A DNA stretch of 12,240 bases from Acidobacteriaceae bacterium (lineage in GTDB: Bacteria; Acidobacteriota; Terriglobia; Terriglobales; Acidobacteriaceae): NCBI GenBank assembly GCA_030040175.1, contig JASHUF010000263.1:1-12240 (forward strand). The letters run 5' to 3'. Shown here piece by piece: positions 1,739 to 11,704 of this stretch. The notes beneath the pieces were generated by a model. That model was not told the DNA's origin, made no database searches, and saw nothing but the letters and a program-made list of their open reading frames with translations. The first letter of the stretch is position 1. Each line of letters opens with the position of its first letter. The position numbers and the translations under genes are program-made.

Positions 1739-2443
1739 ATGCTATCGTCTCCGAGTTTCCCGCGCCCGGCGCGTCTTCCTCGGCCGCCGGCGCGCGTTCC
1801 GCGCGCACTCCTGTTTCTGGCGCTGAGCTTTTTTCCGGGCTATGCCTTGGCGCAAATCGCCACGCACCATGCGGCTCCTGAAGCCGCGAATCTCGACGTC
1901 CGCGATGCGCACGGACTTACGGCGCTGGTCGCGGCCGCATTGCAAGGTGACACCGCGCAGGTCAAATCGCTGCTCGCGCAGGGAGCGCAGGTGAATGCGA
2001 CTGCAGCCGACGGCCGCACCGCTCTCATCGCCGCCGCGCAAAGCGGCAAGATCGATACCGTTGCTGCGCTCATGGCCGCCGGCGCCCATCTCGACTGGTC
2101 TGCCCGTGGCGAAGGAACCGCGCTCAACGTAGCGGAAAACACCGGCCAGGTGCAGATCGCCGCGCTGCTTCTTGCCTCCGGCGCGCACTCCACCGGCAAA
2201 TCCGTCGGCGATACCGTCTGCGTCCGGCCCTGGGCAGGCGATGGATTCTGCGGCACGGTGCGATCGTTCACCCCGCGCTCGGTGGAGATCGAGATCACAA
2301 AGATTGTCGGCTGCGACGGCGGCTGCCAGGCGCGAGCCGAGTGCTCCGCGGCCAGGCCGGTGGGAGGCAGCAACGGTGCTCAACCCGGCGACCGCATCGC
2401 CGTCCCCAGCTGGTGCCTGACGCAGACGGGGGTGAAGCCATGA
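1739..2443 (+). CDS. Secreted ankyrin-repeat protein with six-cysteine C-terminal domain
   Basis: 234 residues. The start at 1739 has GAGAGG (1728-1733) five bases upstream and gives a signal peptide: Pro/Arg-rich n-region, hydrophobic core about 22-36, likely cleavage after ALA at 38. Three ankyrin repeats follow, at about 56-88 (HGLTALVAAALQG), 89-121 (DGRTALIAAAQSG) and 124-151 (GEGTALNVAENTG). Residues 156-234 form a separate domain with Cys at 161, 171, 192, 196, 202 and 226; two similar GDxVxV / GDRIAV strands suggest an SH3-like beta barrel, and the Cys count fits periplasmic disulfides. Ankyrin repeats are protein-binding modules; the partner is unknown. Its TGA overlaps the next gene's ATG (ATGA at 2440-2443), so the two are probably translationally coupled. 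The repeat call and secretion are firm; the role is open. Confidence 0.88.
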   Translation: MLSSPSFPRPARLPRPPARVPRALLFLALSFFPGYALAQIATHHAAPEAANLDVRDAHGLTALVAAALQGDTAQVKSLLAQGAQVNATAADGRTALIAAAQSGKIDTVAALMAAGAHLDWSARGEGTALNVAENTGQVQIAALLLASGAHSTGKSVGDTVCVRPWAGDGFCGTVRSFTPRSVEIEITKIVGCDGGCQARAECSAARPVGGSNGAQPGDRIAVPSWCLTQTGVKP

Positions 2444-5361
2444 AGCTTGCGCACACGCTCTCCTCCCGCGGCTTGTGCCTCGTTGCTGCACTCGTGCTGT
2501 GCTTGCTGACCACGGCCGCCGGCTCTTCGAAAGCCGCCGCTCAGAGCCAGTCGGGATTCCAGTACAACGGCATCGATTTCACTGACTACACCCAGGACGG
2601 CTACCTCTCGAGCTCGGAGGCCGCGCAAACCATCCGCGCAACCAGCGCCAACTACACCGCGGTAATGGCCACCTGGTACGTGCAGACCTTCGATTCGAAT
2701 TCGATTGCGCCGGAGACCACTTCTTCTCCCGGCTACGACGCGAGCACCGATCCGCTCTCACCCGCGGACGGCGCGGTGGTTGCGGCCATCCAGGCCTTGC
2801 AGGCCCAGGGCATCACGGTTACGCTCAAGCCCCACGTGGATTCGATTGACGGAACCTGGCGCGGCGACTTCACCTGGCCTTCCACTGATACCACCACCGC
2901 CGAGCAGCAGGCCTGGCTCACGGCCTGGTTCACCAGCTACGAGTCGTTTATCCTGCACTTCGCGCAGATCGCATCGCAGAACGGCGTGGGCACTCTGGTT
3001 ATCGGCACGGAGTTCACCAAGCTCACGGGCAACACCTGCGCCGGCAGTTGCGAATCGTACTGGCTCGACTACGTCATCAATCCGCTGCGGCAGCAGTATC
3101 CCAATCTCACTCTGGCTTATGGCGCCAACGCCACCGGCGCCGGCGATGAATTCACAACGGTCTCGTTTTGGAACGACGTGGACATCATCGGCGTCGACGG
3201 CTACTTTCCCATCGACAACGCCGCCGATTGCAATACGGACACACCTCCCGATCCCACGCTGGCCGAGCTCGAAAGCGGCTGGACGGACAATCCGTGCGCG
3301 GGCGGCTTCAACGCCGTGGCCGCGCTCGAGAATCTTTCGAGCTCGTATCCCGGCAAGCCGCTCATCTTTACCGAGATCGGCTATCCCAGCGCGACCGGCT
3401 CCAACGCCGCGCCCTACAACTACACGCCCACCGGCGCTTACGACGATTCCGAGCAGGCCAACTGCTATGAGGCCTTCTTCGACATCTTCAGCCAGCAGAC
3501 CTCGTGGATGAAGGGGGTCTTCTGGTGGGCGTGGATGGTTTCCCCGCCGGCAGCGAATGACACCGGCTACTCGCCGCAAAACAAGACCGCCGGTGACACC
3601 ACGCTCCCCGAATGGTTCGGCTCGCAAACCGAGGGCTTCACGCTCGCGCCCGCCAACTCCGCGCTTACCCTGAGCCAAAGCTCGAGCACGTCCACGGTCA
3701 TCTCCGTCACGCCGCTGGACGGGTTCGACGGGACCGTCACTCTGGCCGTCTCCGGCTTGCCCACGGGCGTCACCGCATCCTTTACTACCGGCAGCGCGGC
3801 CAACACGCAGATCCTCACGCTCAAAGCCGCGAGCACGGCCGCCGCGGGCAGTCCGGTCACGGTCACCATCACCGGAACCTCCGGCAGTCTCACCGCAACC
3901 ACATCGATCGCGCTCACCGTCCAGGCTCTGCCGCCCGGCTTCACGCTCTCGGCTTCGCCGGGCAGCGTATCCGTGGGCCAGGGCTCCTCCGCAGTAAGCA
4001 CCGTCACGATCACCGATGCCGGCGGATTCTCGGGCGCGGTTACGCTGGCCGCTTCGAATCTGCCCAGCGGCGTCACGGCGACTTTCGGGACCGGCGGCGC
4101 CGCCGGCACGCAGGTGATTACGCTCAACGTGAGCAGCACCACGCCCACCGGAACGACCGCAGTGACCATTACCGGAACCGGCACCTCCGGCGCACAGACG
4201 CTCACCGCGACCGCCACCATCGAACTTACGGTGGGTCCGCCCAATTTCACCGTTGTGGCCGGGCTGTCCACGCTCTCGATTCCGCAGGGCGACAGCAACA
4301 TGGAGAGCGTCACGGTGACGGACGCCAACGGCTTTAGCGGAAATGTGACTCTTGCTGCATCCGCATTGCCCTCGGGCGTCACCGCTTCCTTCAGCCCCAA
4401 TCCCACAAGCGGCTCGAGCGAGCTCACGCTTACGGCATCCGGCTCCGCCGGCCTGGTTGGGCCGGTGACCATCACCATCACCGGCACCAGCGGCAGTCTC
4501 GCCGCTTCCACAACCGTTCAGATCACGGTCGTGGCCGCGCCCAGTTTCACGATCAACGCTGAGAACCCGACTCTCTCTGTCGCTCAAGGCGCGAGCTCTA
4601 CTGACGCGATCGACGTCACCGACCTCGGCGATTTCAACGGCAGCGTTCAATTCGCCGTCACCGGCCTGCCCAGCGGCGTCACCGCCAGCTTCACTCCCAA
4701 TCCCACCACCGGCGCCTCCACAACGCTTACCGTCACCGCATCGGGCAGCGCTGAGATTCAGGGGCCGGTCAACCTCACCCTGACCGGCACATCCGGCAGC
4801 AGCGCTCAGGAGGCGACCATCGCGCTTTCCGTCACCGGCGCCCCCGGCTTCACCTATAGCGGGAACCCCGACTCATCGATCACCATTGAGCCCGGCGCGA
4901 CCTCCGGGAACACGGCCACCATTGCCGTGATCGGCACAAACGGGTTCAGCGGCACCGTGAATCTGACCTGCGCCATTACGCCGGCAGCGGCCATTGCGCC
5001 CTCATGCACGCTCTTGCCCGTGTCGGTGACCATCAGCGGGAACACTGCTGCTGCTTCCTTGCTGACCGTGAACACCGCTGCGCCGGGGAGCGCTCTGAAT
5101 CACCCCGAGAACTTCATCTGGCCCCCCGCCGGTGGCACCGCGTTGGCCATGGTTCTGTTCCTCTTGCTGCCGCGGCGCCGCAGGAACTGGCTTGCCCTGG
5201 GGTTGGTCCTGGCGCTGGCCCTCTCCCTGAGCGCGATCGGCTGCGGCGGCGGCCATGGAGGGGGTCCCGGAACCACGCCCGGCTCTTACACGGTAACGGT
5301 CACCGGCGCCTCCGGCTCGACGACCGCCACCGTGGGCACAGTCGCGCTGACCATTCAATAG
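2440..5361 (+). CDS. Secreted GH113-like glycosidase with Ig-like repeats and C-terminal membrane hairpin
   Basis: 973 residues, starting at the ATG overlapping the ankyrin gene's stop, with a GGGGGTGA Shine-Dalgarno region at about 2427-2434. Signal peptide 1-34 (cleavage after KAAA). Residues about 38-390 form a TIM-barrel glycosidase like family GH113 (beta-mannanases): the strand-4 motif IGTEFTKL carries the likely acid/base Glu191 and LIFTEIGYPS the likely nucleophile Glu312; KGVFWWAW is the usual last-strand aromatic segment. From 399 on come Ig-like repeats starting at about 399, 500, 602, 702 and 803, each ending in a (T)VTITGTSGS-type strand pair. Residues 898-911 and 917-934 are hydrophobic, joined by RRRR (912-915), followed by Cys935 and a Gly-rich stretch, then a last 30-residue strand segment. 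Family knowledge suggests hydrolysis of beta-mannan or a related polysaccharide at the cell surface; the exact substrate is inference. Confidence 0.87.
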   Translation: MKLAHTLSSRGLCLVAALVLCLLTTAAGSSKAAAQSQSGFQYNGIDFTDYTQDGYLSSSEAAQTIRATSANYTAVMATWYVQTFDSNSIAPETTSSPGYDASTDPLSPADGAVVAAIQALQAQGITVTLKPHVDSIDGTWRGDFTWPSTDTTTAEQQAWLTAWFTSYESFILHFAQIASQNGVGTLVIGTEFTKLTGNTCAGSCESYWLDYVINPLRQQYPNLTLAYGANATGAGDEFTTVSFWNDVDIIGVDGYFPIDNAADCNTDTPPDPTLAELESGWTDNPCAGGFNAVAALENLSSSYPGKPLIFTEIGYPSATGSNAAPYNYTPTGAYDDSEQANCYEAFFDIFSQQTSWMKGVFWWAWMVSPPAANDTGYSPQNKTAGDTTLPEWFGSQTEGFTLAPANSALTLSQSSSTSTVISVTPLDGFDGTVTLAVSGLPTGVTASFTTGSAANTQILTLKAASTAAAGSPVTVTITGTSGSLTATTSIALTVQALPPGFTLSASPGSVSVGQGSSAVSTVTITDAGGFSGAVTLAASNLPSGVTATFGTGGAAGTQVITLNVSSTTPTGTTAVTITGTGTSGAQTLTATATIELTVGPPNFTVVAGLSTLSIPQGDSNMESVTVTDANGFSGNVTLAASALPSGVTASFSPNPTSGSSELTLTASGSAGLVGPVTITITGTSGSLAASTTVQITVVAAPSFTINAENPTLSVAQGASSTDAIDVTDLGDFNGSVQFAVTGLPSGVTASFTPNPTTGASTTLTVTASGSAEIQGPVNLTLTGTSGSSAQEATIALSVTGAPGFTYSGNPDSSITIEPGATSGNTATIAVIGTNGFSGTVNLTCAITPAAAIAPSCTLLPVSVTISGNTAAASLLTVNTAAPGSALNHPENFIWPPAGGTALAMVLFLLLPRRRRNWLALGLVLALALSLSAIGCGGGHGGGPGTTPGSYTVTVTGASGSTTATVGTVALTIQ
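3634..5361 (+). repeat. Tandem ~300-bp units encoding Ig-like repeats in the GH113-like protein
   Basis: Within the glycosidase gene four full units begin at 3634, 3937, 4243 and 4543, with a fifth, altered unit from 4846. The spacings are 303, 306, 300 and 303 bases, so the period is about 101 codons. Each unit opens with (G/N/S)FT, has a GFxGxVTLAxSxLPxGVTAxF core, and closes with VTITGTSGS and LTV. DNA-level similarity is patchy (for example around LPSGVTA in units two and four), which points to old duplications rather than recent copying. The fifth unit lacks its closing strands at the expected place; they reappear after the membrane segment. Confidence 0.85.
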
Positions 5362-8690: not shown

Positions 8691-8902
8691 ACCCCGGAGG
8701 GTCGCGTTGACTTTGGGCCATGGCTCCTCGAATATCCCACTTCCTAATCCGCTCCAGCCCTGCGCGTAATGCGGCCGTTGGTTCTTGCGGGAACGCCGCC
8801 GTGCACAGGGCTATTGCGGCTGGAGAGGGAGGTTGACTCCACTTGATGGGAGTCTCCTGCAGGGGTCAATTCAGGAAAACGAATGGGCAATCGGAGGAAT
8901 TC

Positions 8903-10936
8903 ATGAAACCCAAGATGGACTTGTTCCTTGGTGCGCTTCTCGCGGGCATTCTTCTCACACCCCAGGCCCGAACGCAGCAGCCCATGCCTGCTCGCAAGGC
9001 CCCAGCCCCGGCATTTGTCCCTTTGCCGGGGGACATTCAGTGCTCCCTTCAGGGTCTGTCGTACACACCGGTAGCGGGAGCCACGGGCGGGACGGCGGGC
9101 GGCAACGGCGCCGTCGAACACGTCACATGCTGGATCGCCACCAAGACTCCGGTGCAAAAGAGGGAACTGCCGCTCGCTTCGAACGCCGTCGCGCGGGGGT
9201 TCGTTCTCACCAGGAACTTTGGCAGACTGCGCATCGCCCCCACACACGGCGGAGCTTCCTCAGGCGTTGCCATCGCCGTCCGCAGCGATCAGTTACCTTC
9301 GTTGAGAGCCTTTCTGCAAAGCCCCGACCAGGTCGCGGCCGCAGTGCCGGCGGCGGGCAGCGCATCGGCACAAGGTGAAGCGGTGAAGCCCCAGCCCGTC
9401 ATCAAGCCGCCGGCCACGTACTCCGAAACCAAGTTGACGGCCATTCGCCCCAACGGCGAGGGAGGCTTCTCGCCTTATTGGGTCGCCTATATCGTGAGTC
9501 CGGACAAAGACAGCGCAGACAAGAGCTACTACGTCGAGCTCAACGGCGACAGGCTGGGCCCTTACGTCAATGTGAGCCCCTGGGTACGCATCAGCTCTGA
9601 CCAGCAACATATCGCGTTTGCAGCGCAGAAAGGCGACCTTTGGACGCTGGTGCTCGATGGCGTAGAAAAATACAGCGCCAGGAAACTTCTCTGGGCCGGA
9701 GCAAGCTGGAGTCCTGCTCTGGAAAGCAACGTCTTCAGCAACGAGGTGAACGCCGCCATGTTCGGTTTTGTCCCCGGCGGCGGTCTCGCCTATCCCGCGT
9801 CAGGCGATGACGGGCTCGATCACATGTTTGTCGACGGCGTGCCGGGGCCGGGATTCGGGGGCTTCTCAAGCCAGTTCGAGTGGGTCAACGGAGCCGTATT
9901 CGCCACCGGATTCACCAACGAAAAGGCCACCGTGATCCACGGCGCAAAGCAATTCGGTCCCTACGACTCGGTCTCGTACGAACAGATATCGGACGACGGC
10001 CAGCACTACGCCCAGCGAGTAACGGCCCAGGGTGTCTCGCAGATTTTGTATGACGACGCCCTGATCCAGCCCAAAGGCGAGATCGGCTCCTTTGCCATCG
10101 GTCCTCACGGCGAGCTTGCGTACAGTTACACGGAAGGCGGCTCAAGCCGGGTTGTCTTTAACGGCCAGGAACTGCCGGACACTTATCAATTCGTGGATTA
10201 CCTCGCCGTCAGCCCAGATGGGAAGCAGCTCGCGTTCTGGGCCAGGAAGGGCAGCCAATGGATGCTGGTGGCGGGCGACAAGACCTATCCAAGCGCCCGC
10301 GGGTACTTTATTTACATTGCCGGCGACCAGTACGCAGTGATGTGGAGCCACGATTCGCAGCACGTGCTGTACTTCGTCCGCAACGGCAAAGACGGTGGTA
10401 TCGCCATGCTCGACGGCGCTGCGCTGAAAAACTCCTACGCCCCTGGCGGCTTTATGGTGATGGGCATCATTCAGGACGACGATGGGGAAATCGCTGGAGA
10501 GCAAATGATGGGCAACGGCGGAATCGACCGGCAAGGCATGGTGGAAGCAGCTCTTCATGAAGGCAGAACGGGATGCCTTCCTGCGTCGTCTGTGCTGATC
10601 GGTCAAACCCTCTCCTGCATCGTCAGACCGTCATCGAACGATAACGGCAACGGCGCCAATGCGCAGCAGCCGGAGCGCGTAATCTACGGCGACAAGGAGG
10701 AAGGCCCTTACAAGAAGGTGGCAAGCACCGTGTCGGCAACCAGGGACGGCCAACACTATGCCTACGTGGTTGAATCGGACCAGGGATGGCAGGTGGTTGT
10801 GGATGGCAGGCTTCGTCCCCAAGTCTTTGACCAGATCTACCGCGCTTATCTCAACGATAGCGACAACACGTACGAGTTGCTGGCTTCCAAAGGCGGGAAT
10901 CTCTACCACGTCGTGCAACCCCTCGCTGCGCAATAG
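8903..10936 (+). CDS. Large secreted protein with propeller-like repeats, function unknown
   Basis: 677 residues. The ATG at 8903 is chosen because GGAGGA at 8893-8898 lies just upstream and the protein then begins with a signal peptide (hydrophobic core about 6-19, LFLGALLAGILLTP). A Pro/Ala-rich segment follows, then an N-terminal region with two Cys (IQCSL, VTCWI). From about residue 205 the protein repeats a pattern: V/Y-x-x-G-x-x-x-GPY near 208-218, 344-354 and 593-603, each followed by D(G/Q)QHxAxxxxxxGxxW and a LVLDG/VVVDG-like end; a related unit begins at 417 (VVFNGQELPD) with SPDGKQLAFWARKG. This is the look of a TolB/WD40-like beta-propeller, with blades too divergent to count by eye. 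A second Cys pair is near the C-terminus (GCLPAS, LSCIV). No catalytic motif is seen. It stands alone, likely a periplasmic or surface binding protein. Confidence 0.85.
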   Translation: MKPKMDLFLGALLAGILLTPQARTQQPMPARKAPAPAFVPLPGDIQCSLQGLSYTPVAGATGGTAGGNGAVEHVTCWIATKTPVQKRELPLASNAVARGFVLTRNFGRLRIAPTHGGASSGVAIAVRSDQLPSLRAFLQSPDQVAAAVPAAGSASAQGEAVKPQPVIKPPATYSETKLTAIRPNGEGGFSPYWVAYIVSPDKDSADKSYYVELNGDRLGPYVNVSPWVRISSDQQHIAFAAQKGDLWTLVLDGVEKYSARKLLWAGASWSPALESNVFSNEVNAAMFGFVPGGGLAYPASGDDGLDHMFVDGVPGPGFGGFSSQFEWVNGAVFATGFTNEKATVIHGAKQFGPYDSVSYEQISDDGQHYAQRVTAQGVSQILYDDALIQPKGEIGSFAIGPHGELAYSYTEGGSSRVVFNGQELPDTYQFVDYLAVSPDGKQLAFWARKGSQWMLVAGDKTYPSARGYFIYIAGDQYAVMWSHDSQHVLYFVRNGKDGGIAMLDGAALKNSYAPGGFMVMGIIQDDDGEIAGEQMMGNGGIDRQGMVEAALHEGRTGCLPASSVLIGQTLSCIVRPSSNDNGNGANAQQPERVIYGDKEEGPYKKVASTVSATRDGQHYAYVVESDQGWQVVVDGRLRPQVFDQIYRAYLNDSDNTYELLASKGGNLYHVVQPLAAQ

Positions 10937-11164: not shown

Positions 11165-11305
11165 ACGCGGCCGCCCCCAAGATCAATTCGATTGTTTGCA
11201 GTGCGCTGAGACTTATCTCTGCGCCGCTCCGTCCTTCAATCACAGGTGGCCGCCGCTTGCCCGCTGCGCGCCGGAACCGTCGTATGGTTGGAAAGGAAAA
11301 TGTGC

Positions 11306-11704
11306 ATGATCCGCAAATTGGGGCTCACAGTTTTGTTTTTCGCACTCGGCTCCGTGGCCGCGCTGGCCGCAGACTTTAACGGCAAGTGGAATGCCCAGGT
11401 TCAGGGCCGCAACGGCACGCAGACTCTGGTCTTCGACTTCCACGTCGAGGGCACGACTCTCACCGGTAAAATCACCACGCCGCGCGGCGACACGGATATT
11501 TCGAACGGCAAGGTCGATGGCGACACCATCACCTTCGACCAGGTGCTGAACTTCAACGGCAACCCGGTCACCATCTCCTACACCGGCAAAGCCTCTGGCG
11601 ACACCATCGAGTTCACGCGCCAGTTCGGCGCCGCCGGCGACCGTCCGCCGCAGCAGTTTACGGCCAGGCGCGGAGATGCTGCCCCTGCCACTGCGCCGCA
11701 ATAG
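11306..11704 (+). CDS. Small secreted beta-rich protein, unknown function
   Basis: 132 residues. Two ATGs (11300 and 11306) are possible; AAAGGA at 11292-11297 is eight bases before 11306 but only two before 11300, so I prefer 11306. The protein begins with a signal peptide (RKLGLTVLFFALGSVAALA, cleavage about 21). The mature part is ~110 residues of alternating beta-strand pattern: DFNGKWNAQV, LVFDFHVEGTTLTGKI, GDTDISNGKVDGDTITFDQ, NFNGNPVTISYTGKASGDTIEFTRQFG. The G-x-W start and paired strands recall a small lipocalin-like barrel. I know similar short secreted proteins from Acidobacteriota, without an assigned function. The C-terminus is Ala/Pro-rich (GDAAPATAPQ). It lies between the glycosyltransferase remnant and rplS, with which it shares a strand but probably not an operon. 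Confidence 0.85.
   Translation: MIRKLGLTVLFFALGSVAALAADFNGKWNAQVQGRNGTQTLVFDFHVEGTTLTGKITTPRGDTDISNGKVDGDTITFDQVLNFNGNPVTISYTGKASGDTIEFTRQFGAAGDRPPQQFTARRGDAAPATAPQ

Follow-up and report, generated by a model that had tools for sequence, protein, structure and literature searches.

How can an immunoglobulin-like (Ig-like) repeat be completed when two hydrophobic segments stand between its strands? This question is raised by a GH113-like gene in the window, the stretch of 12,240 nucleotides that we analysed from an Acidobacteriaceae bacterium (contig JASHUF010000263.1 of assembly GCA_030040175.1). Its open reading frame (ORF) at 2440-5361 (+) encodes 973 amino acids plus a stop codon, and the last of its five Ig-like repeats is interrupted. 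We favor, with moderate confidence, the reading that this fifth repeat is a single Ig-like fold interrupted by a hairpin, that both parts would lie outside the membrane, and that Cys935, at the end of the hairpin, is probably lipidated and cut by LspA. The split fold had been proposed in an earlier note on this DNA, and we found it supported by the mapping of both parts onto one repeat profile, by a constant break point, by a second class of tails and by covariation in the register of a C-F strand pair. The features of the gene are as follows.

2440..5361, forward strand: whole gene for a secreted GH113-like enzyme; five Ig-like repeats, of which the last is split (ORF; PF22612)
2440..2541, forward strand: N-terminal Sec-type signal peptide, residues 1-34 (sequence; hydrophobic windows centered at 12-23)
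3634..4839, forward strand: Ig-like repeats 1-4, each complete (sequence)
4846..5076, forward strand: fifth repeat, first part, residues 803-879, putative strands A-E, with Cys844 and Cys856 (profile columns 7-77, 65.4 bits)
4945..4947, forward strand: Phe836, profile column 31, which covaries with column 92 across the hairpin (covariation)
5119..5172, forward strand: WPPAGG motif (894-899) and first membrane segment, residues 894-911 (sequence; hydrophobicity)
5173..5184, forward strand: RRRR turn, residues 912-915 (sequence)
5185..5241, forward strand: second membrane segment, residues 916-934, with the shape of a lipoprotein-signal h-region (sequence; hydrophobicity)
5242..5244, forward strand: Cys935, lipobox-like (A-I-G-C; Cys in 120/120 and 119/119 hairpins located without using it)
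5245..5286, forward strand: Gly-rich linker, residues 936-949 (sequence)
5287..5358, forward strand: putative closing strands F and G of the fifth repeat, residues 950-973 (profile columns 78-100 at residues 944-966, 14.8 bits)
5311..5313, forward strand: Ser958, profile column 92, partner of Phe836 (covariation)

The two parts of the fifth repeat

The catalytic domain scored above the cut-off of PF22612 (152.1 bits against 27), which places it in GH113 with solved mannanases as its relatives. Glu191 and Glu312, which we take to be the two catalytic Glu of GH113, lie within motifs that align with those mannanases. The signal peptide precedes this domain, its end (between AAA and QS) placed by eye, and the repeats start at residues 399, 500, 602, 702 and 803. 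The earlier note had described four whole repeats and a fifth interrupted by a hydrophobic hairpin, and both the arrangement and its coordinates proved right. Kyte-Doolittle values (window 19) exceeded 1.6 solely at centers 12-23, in the N-terminal signal, and at 901-902 and 924-929; the first hydrophobic segment is thus real yet short, as had been said of it. The first part of the fifth repeat ends with LLTVNT (874-879), which sits inside LLTVNTAAPGSA (874-885), GCGGG occupies residues 934-938, and the closing strands are YTVTVTG (950-956) and VALTIQ (968-973).

A repeat profile was built from 92 upstream copies, which had been found with one complete homologue repeat in sequences cut 150 residues before the tail Cys. 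In the window protein the profile columns run unbroken across the hairpin, with residues 812-881 matching columns 7-77 and residues 944-966 matching columns 78-100, so that in profile terms the stretch after the hairpin completes the repeat, in line with the earlier note. We then considered homologues in the form of class I tails, the best 120 of 411 with the window's own protein included; the other homologue lists were the best 120 of 289 (query L014, included) and the best 120 of 247. The profile found the first part in all 120 class I tails and the second part in 119/120, which is not an unbiased frequency given that the lists were selected by similarity to such tails. An alignment of homologues had been suggested as a way to see whether the insertion point is constant, and the first part ended at columns 77-84 in 118 of the 120 (median 81, range 77-95). 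The second part started at column 76 in the median (range 68-80), and the halves therefore meet with a small overlap. The cleaned larger set gave first-part ends at columns 77-84 in 365 of 407 tails, with 27 ending earlier, 4 at columns 85-88 and 11 at column 89 or later. No repeat that was complete before the membrane segment was noticed among the tails inspected by eye. The exceptions were of another kind, with C-termini truncated, shifted or replaced (L072, L091, L093, L098, P0217 and P0235).

The region after the helices was conserved in an alignment of 45 sequences (A2), in which the sole invariant columns were the lipobox-like Cys and Tyr950 of the putative F strand. The rows had been chosen by a Cys-requiring rule, and Tyr950 is for that reason the unbiased invariant column. 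Nine of 53 loci were left out of A2: six showed no hairpin under this rule (L076, L078, L081, L092, L095 and L098, the last of which looks truncated), L093 had frame shifts, and L072 and L091 were without proper closing strands.

Two further proteins of the same genome (L014 and L016, on contigs C90 and C399) have one strand more before the hairpin and define class II. The order in L014 is ...AGTYVITVVFTETLPGA, hairpin, GC and then a single strand. The search with L014 returned 289 proteins, and hairpin and Cys were present in 120 of the best 120 (the query and 119 homologues). Of the 110 that align among these 120, 106 have a class II first part that reaches columns 87-93, and strand F would therefore lie before the hairpin. 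Aberrant ends occurred in 2/120 (P0217 and P0235), and no complete copies of class II repeats passed the filter in the sequence bodies. By eye, 13 proteins of the window's genome are broken at E-F and 2 at F-G. A similar hairpin appears to interrupt the domain in either of two adjacent loops, and the strands still lacking would always come after it. In two of the 13 proteins broken at E-F (L007 and L012), the Cys and the closing strands are separated by a whole additional Ig-like domain.

Covariation across the hairpin

In an Ig-like fold, strands C and F pair in antiparallel fashion and strand B packs against F. We compared 71 antiparallel registers in a cleaned set of 360 tails (effective number 284) and 221 complete repeats. 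Cleaning dropped 51 of 272 "complete" repeats that had no F-G columns, being first parts of split tails, and mended mis-split tails in which the Cys had fallen within the first helix. The best register of the 360 tails was i+j=127, followed by 125, 123, 128 and 121, and none of 200 shuffles was as high in any register; the top two registers of the 221 complete repeats were 129 and 127. Before cleaning, with 382 tails, 0/200 shuffles were as high within the band and 2/200 anywhere. The columns coupled in this 382-tail set, 28-41 with 86-99, fit the pairing that strands C and F would have in an Ig fold. The strongest coupled pair of all was columns 39/52, which correspond to Cys844/Cys856.

Columns 31 and 92, occupied by Phe836 and Ser958 in the window protein, ranked second of the cross-hairpin pairs in the cleaned tails and first in the complete repeats, and first among the tail cross pairs before cleaning. 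The swap at this pair is between Phe with a residue other than Asp and Tyr with Asp. Asp92 was found in 17 of 34 tails with Tyr31 and in 10 of 301 with Phe31, and the complete repeats gave 6/7 and 27/208, respectively. On a tree built without columns 31 and 92, which rests on 93 columns, the cleaned set showed 16 gains of Tyr31 and 13 of Asp92, with 5 branches shared against 0.29 expected (17, 13 and 6 shared in the uncleaned set).

These results bear on the alternative that the hairpin separates a fifth repeat that has lost its end from what is left of a sixth, the halves not being packed together. Such tails end repeat arrays, where truncation may well be plausible. However, in almost every tail the halves join at the same point of the profile, in the second class the cut comes one strand further on and leaves its last strand alone beyond the hairpin, and the covariation falls in a single strand register with 5 shared-branch changes where 0.29 are expected. 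We regard decay of this kind as very improbable.

The second helix and the conserved cysteine

A lipobox consists of an uncharged h-region that ends in [AGS]C and is described by a PROSITE-like pattern; in the lipoprotein route, Lgt diacylates the Cys and LspA cuts before it. The window protein carries AIGC at the end of its second helix. We located hairpins by the basic cluster and hydrophobic flanks alone, by which one class II hairpin was not located, and a Cys followed 120/120 class I and 119/119 class II hairpins (239/239). Position -1 was G, A or S in 240/240 tails, and position +2 was Gly in 112/120 of class I and 116/120 of class II. The spacing from the last basic residue to the Cys was 20 residues in 107/120 class I tails, and the 16 residues before the Cys were free of D, E, K, R, H, N and Q in 116/120 class I and 96/120 class II tails. 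The PROSITE-like pattern fitted 116/120 and 83/120, respectively. The tail shares with lipoproteins a basic cluster, an uncharged h-region, [AGS]C and mostly Gly at +2. It differs from them in the position of the signal-like stretch (residues 912-935 of 973), which is followed by 38 residues and preceded by a full enzyme that has an export signal of its own, and in that the commonest residue at -3 in class I is Ala and not Leu.

The earlier note had read the hairpin as a tether holding both halves of the fold outside, with RRRR (912-915) on the cytoplasmic side, which we too assume from the positive-inside rule. The split fold stood, whereas the tether is an incomplete account: because of the likeness of the second helix to a lipoprotein signal, the hairpin may undergo cleavage and not last. 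A split fold without any processing, in which the helices form a permanent two-pass anchor in an Ig-like loop and Cys935 is unlipidated or uncut, is the alternative that we take most seriously, although we consider it unlikely. Both segments exceed the hydrophobicity threshold in the window protein and the anatomy requires nothing more, and the prevalence of Ala at -3 in class I and the 37/120 class II tails that miss the PROSITE-like pattern also speak for it. It leaves unexplained, however, why a Cys follows 239/239 hairpins, why G, A or S precedes the Cys in 240/240 and why the 20-residue spacing recurs in 107/120 of class I.

The window's genome has one LspA match and two Lgt matches (L101 and L102, on contigs C441 and C513 of G000, at 151.9 and 85.3 bits), and two or more Lgt matches were present in 28 of 31 genomes of the family. 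The second Lgt was rejected as a dedicated enzyme, given that G023, G121 and G210 have one Lgt yet carry tails. Local N-terminal lipoproteins were sought for comparison, and the loci gave 4 candidates, too few for the purpose. One Ig-like repeat protein of the same genome (L017) has an ordinary N-terminal lipoprotein-like signal, SLAGCGG, and both protein ends are therefore used for such signals. A second Cys lies about 9 to 14 residues after the lipobox Cys in L068, L071, L079, L090 and L096.

Related systems, distribution and proposed mechanism

The tail is already catalogued as NCBIfam NF058595, "lipo-invert putative C-terminal anchoring domain" (invert_tail), which matched residues 873-973 at 64.5 bits (cut-off 37). 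Whereas the class I window protein exceeds this cut-off, 6/6 class II proteins tested remained under it (26.8, 26.3, not listed, 26.8, 30.8 and 21.8 bits). NF058597 "choice-of-anchor Z" repeats occur in all six class II proteins scanned (P0121, P0127, P0142, P0152, P0160 and P0217). A literature search at the level of listings turned up no paper on NF058595 by name or accession and no description of such a tail, of the split fold or of two break points, in keeping with the earlier note, which knew of no account of the split fold. What is new here is the mapping of both halves onto one profile, the second break-point class, the Cys after every located hairpin and the covariation across it.

NF058595 exceeded its cut-off in 36 of 297 genomes of the phylum, comprising all 31 of the window's family and 5 of 266 others. 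In each of the 31 sampled family genomes the match with the best E-value exceeded the cut-off, and between 3 and 14 matches were listed per genome. The window's genome had 17 matches, 13 of them over the cut-off, and the hairpin was present in 15 proteins, all among these 17. A profile of the hairpin alone was scored on at most 150 candidates per genome; it gave 1 match in G225, where NF058595 gave 14, so that absence by this profile means little there. The full tail occurs in named records such as Paracidobacterium acidisoli, Occallatibacter savannae, a Granulicella and metagenome-assembled genomes of Terracidiphilus. The tail follows many kinds of proteins, with precomputed Pfam domains that include PF22612 (GH113), PF09286, PF01436 and PF01344, the last three of which we take to be a protease pro-domain, NHL and Kelch.

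Dedicated sorting enzymes offer a further explanation, in which WPxxGG, the first helix and the Arg cluster would form a tripartite sorting signal and the rest would be a remnant. The order of motif, helix and basic cluster is that of LPXTG, PEP-CTERM and GlyGly-CTERM, and weak matches were found to MYXO-CTERM (TIGR03901, 13.9 bits) and LPXTG (12.1 bits). However, both matches are under their cut-offs (20 and 15.9), and the part after the helices is conserved. LPXTG and PEP-CTERM signals form the very end of the protein, unlike this tail, in which 58 residues still follow RRRR. Sortase had no match in 7/7 tail-bearing genomes, and exosortase had none in 3/7 and a match in the other 4/7, the window's genome included; rhomboid and CPBP proteases were not searched for. 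A sortase-like tag therefore seems to us quite improbable. The account of MYXO-CTERM and myxosortase describes an invariant Cys beside a helix and a basic cluster, proposes that the Cys is lipidated, and sets the arrangement against lipoproteins as inverted in topology and without a lipobox (PMC11980579). The tail studied here is similar in having a Cys near a helix and a basic cluster and a proposed lipidation (PMC11980579). The orders differ, with Cys, helix, basic cluster and end in MYXO-CTERM, and helix, Arg, helix, Cys and strands here.

An ankyrin-repeat ORF (1649-2443) is directly upstream of the GH113 gene, its stop overlapping the ATG at 2440 (ATGA), which suggests coupled translation of the two. 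A 3-keto-disaccharide hydrolase gene (469-1323, PF06439) lies near the mannanase-like gene, and the pair may form part of a single gene set for sugar use. The ORFs at 8843-10936 (697 aa) and 11246-11704 (152 aa) had no Pfam match at E 0.01.

We propose the following mechanism for the split fold with a lipoprotein-like second helix. The N-terminal signal would export the protein, and the chain would cross the inner membrane and return within the loop between strands E and F. Strands A-E would emerge outside, the first, short helix would stop transfer, and the Arg cluster would remain in the cytoplasm. The second helix would then restart transfer in the manner of a lipoprotein signal peptide, and strands F-G would emerge and close the same fold outside. 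Because a lipobox-like A-I-G-C closes the second helix, we suggest that Cys935 would receive a diacyl group from the ordinary Lgt and that the ordinary LspA would cleave in front of it. This would place the lipid on a short C-terminal piece (935-973), bound to the enzyme through the completed sheet.

Several points weigh against this reading. Among 182 tails the covariation was weak, with shuffles as strong in 10/150 within the band and in 35/150 anywhere (Spearman 0.048), and the register band had first been noticed in this smaller set. The coupling maps of tails and complete repeats agreed slightly overall (Spearman 0.08). Shuffles within clusters left the signal in place, and because most clusters are single sequences this control speaks neither for nor against deep common ancestry. 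No solved structure was significantly related to the repeats; the best PDB match, the MS2 coat protein (E 0.0051), was judged spurious. At its short length the closing strand of class II cannot reach a significant profile score, the PROSITE-like pattern fits only 83/120 class II tails, position -3 in class I is Ala in 65/120 with the usual Leu lacking, and the homologue lists carry the selection described above. If LspA alone made a cut, moreover, the hairpin would still hold the enzyme in the inner membrane.

A tentative extension, which we find rather doubtful, is that, besides the cut by LspA before Cys935, a second protease cuts before the first helix, and that the hairpin is excised. The mature enzyme would then consist of two chains, clasped to the outer membrane by a lipopeptide that contributes its own strand (class II) or strand pair (class I) to finish the Ig-like domain, as a lipidated donor supplied in cis, and this anchor would be used by several proteins per genome in one acidobacterial family. 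In the donor-strand complementation of chaperone-usher pili, the missing strand is supplied by another subunit, and type V fimbrial subunits are lipoproteins. Type V fimbriae, with Mfa4, are a further case of donor-strand complementation (PMC4789730). The tail resembles such systems in that an Ig-like fold would be finished by a noncontiguous strand. It differs in that the strands are encoded within the same ORF and the lipid would be on the completing piece.

In summary, if our reading is true, the tail would provide a natural split-domain clasp for protein engineering and a C-terminal lipid anchor that works without a sortase. The rules of lipoprotein biogenesis, under which the signal is N-terminal, would be extended, and a large set of secreted acidobacterial proteins would be fastened by a membrane-interrupted domain whose lipobox lies far from the N-terminus.

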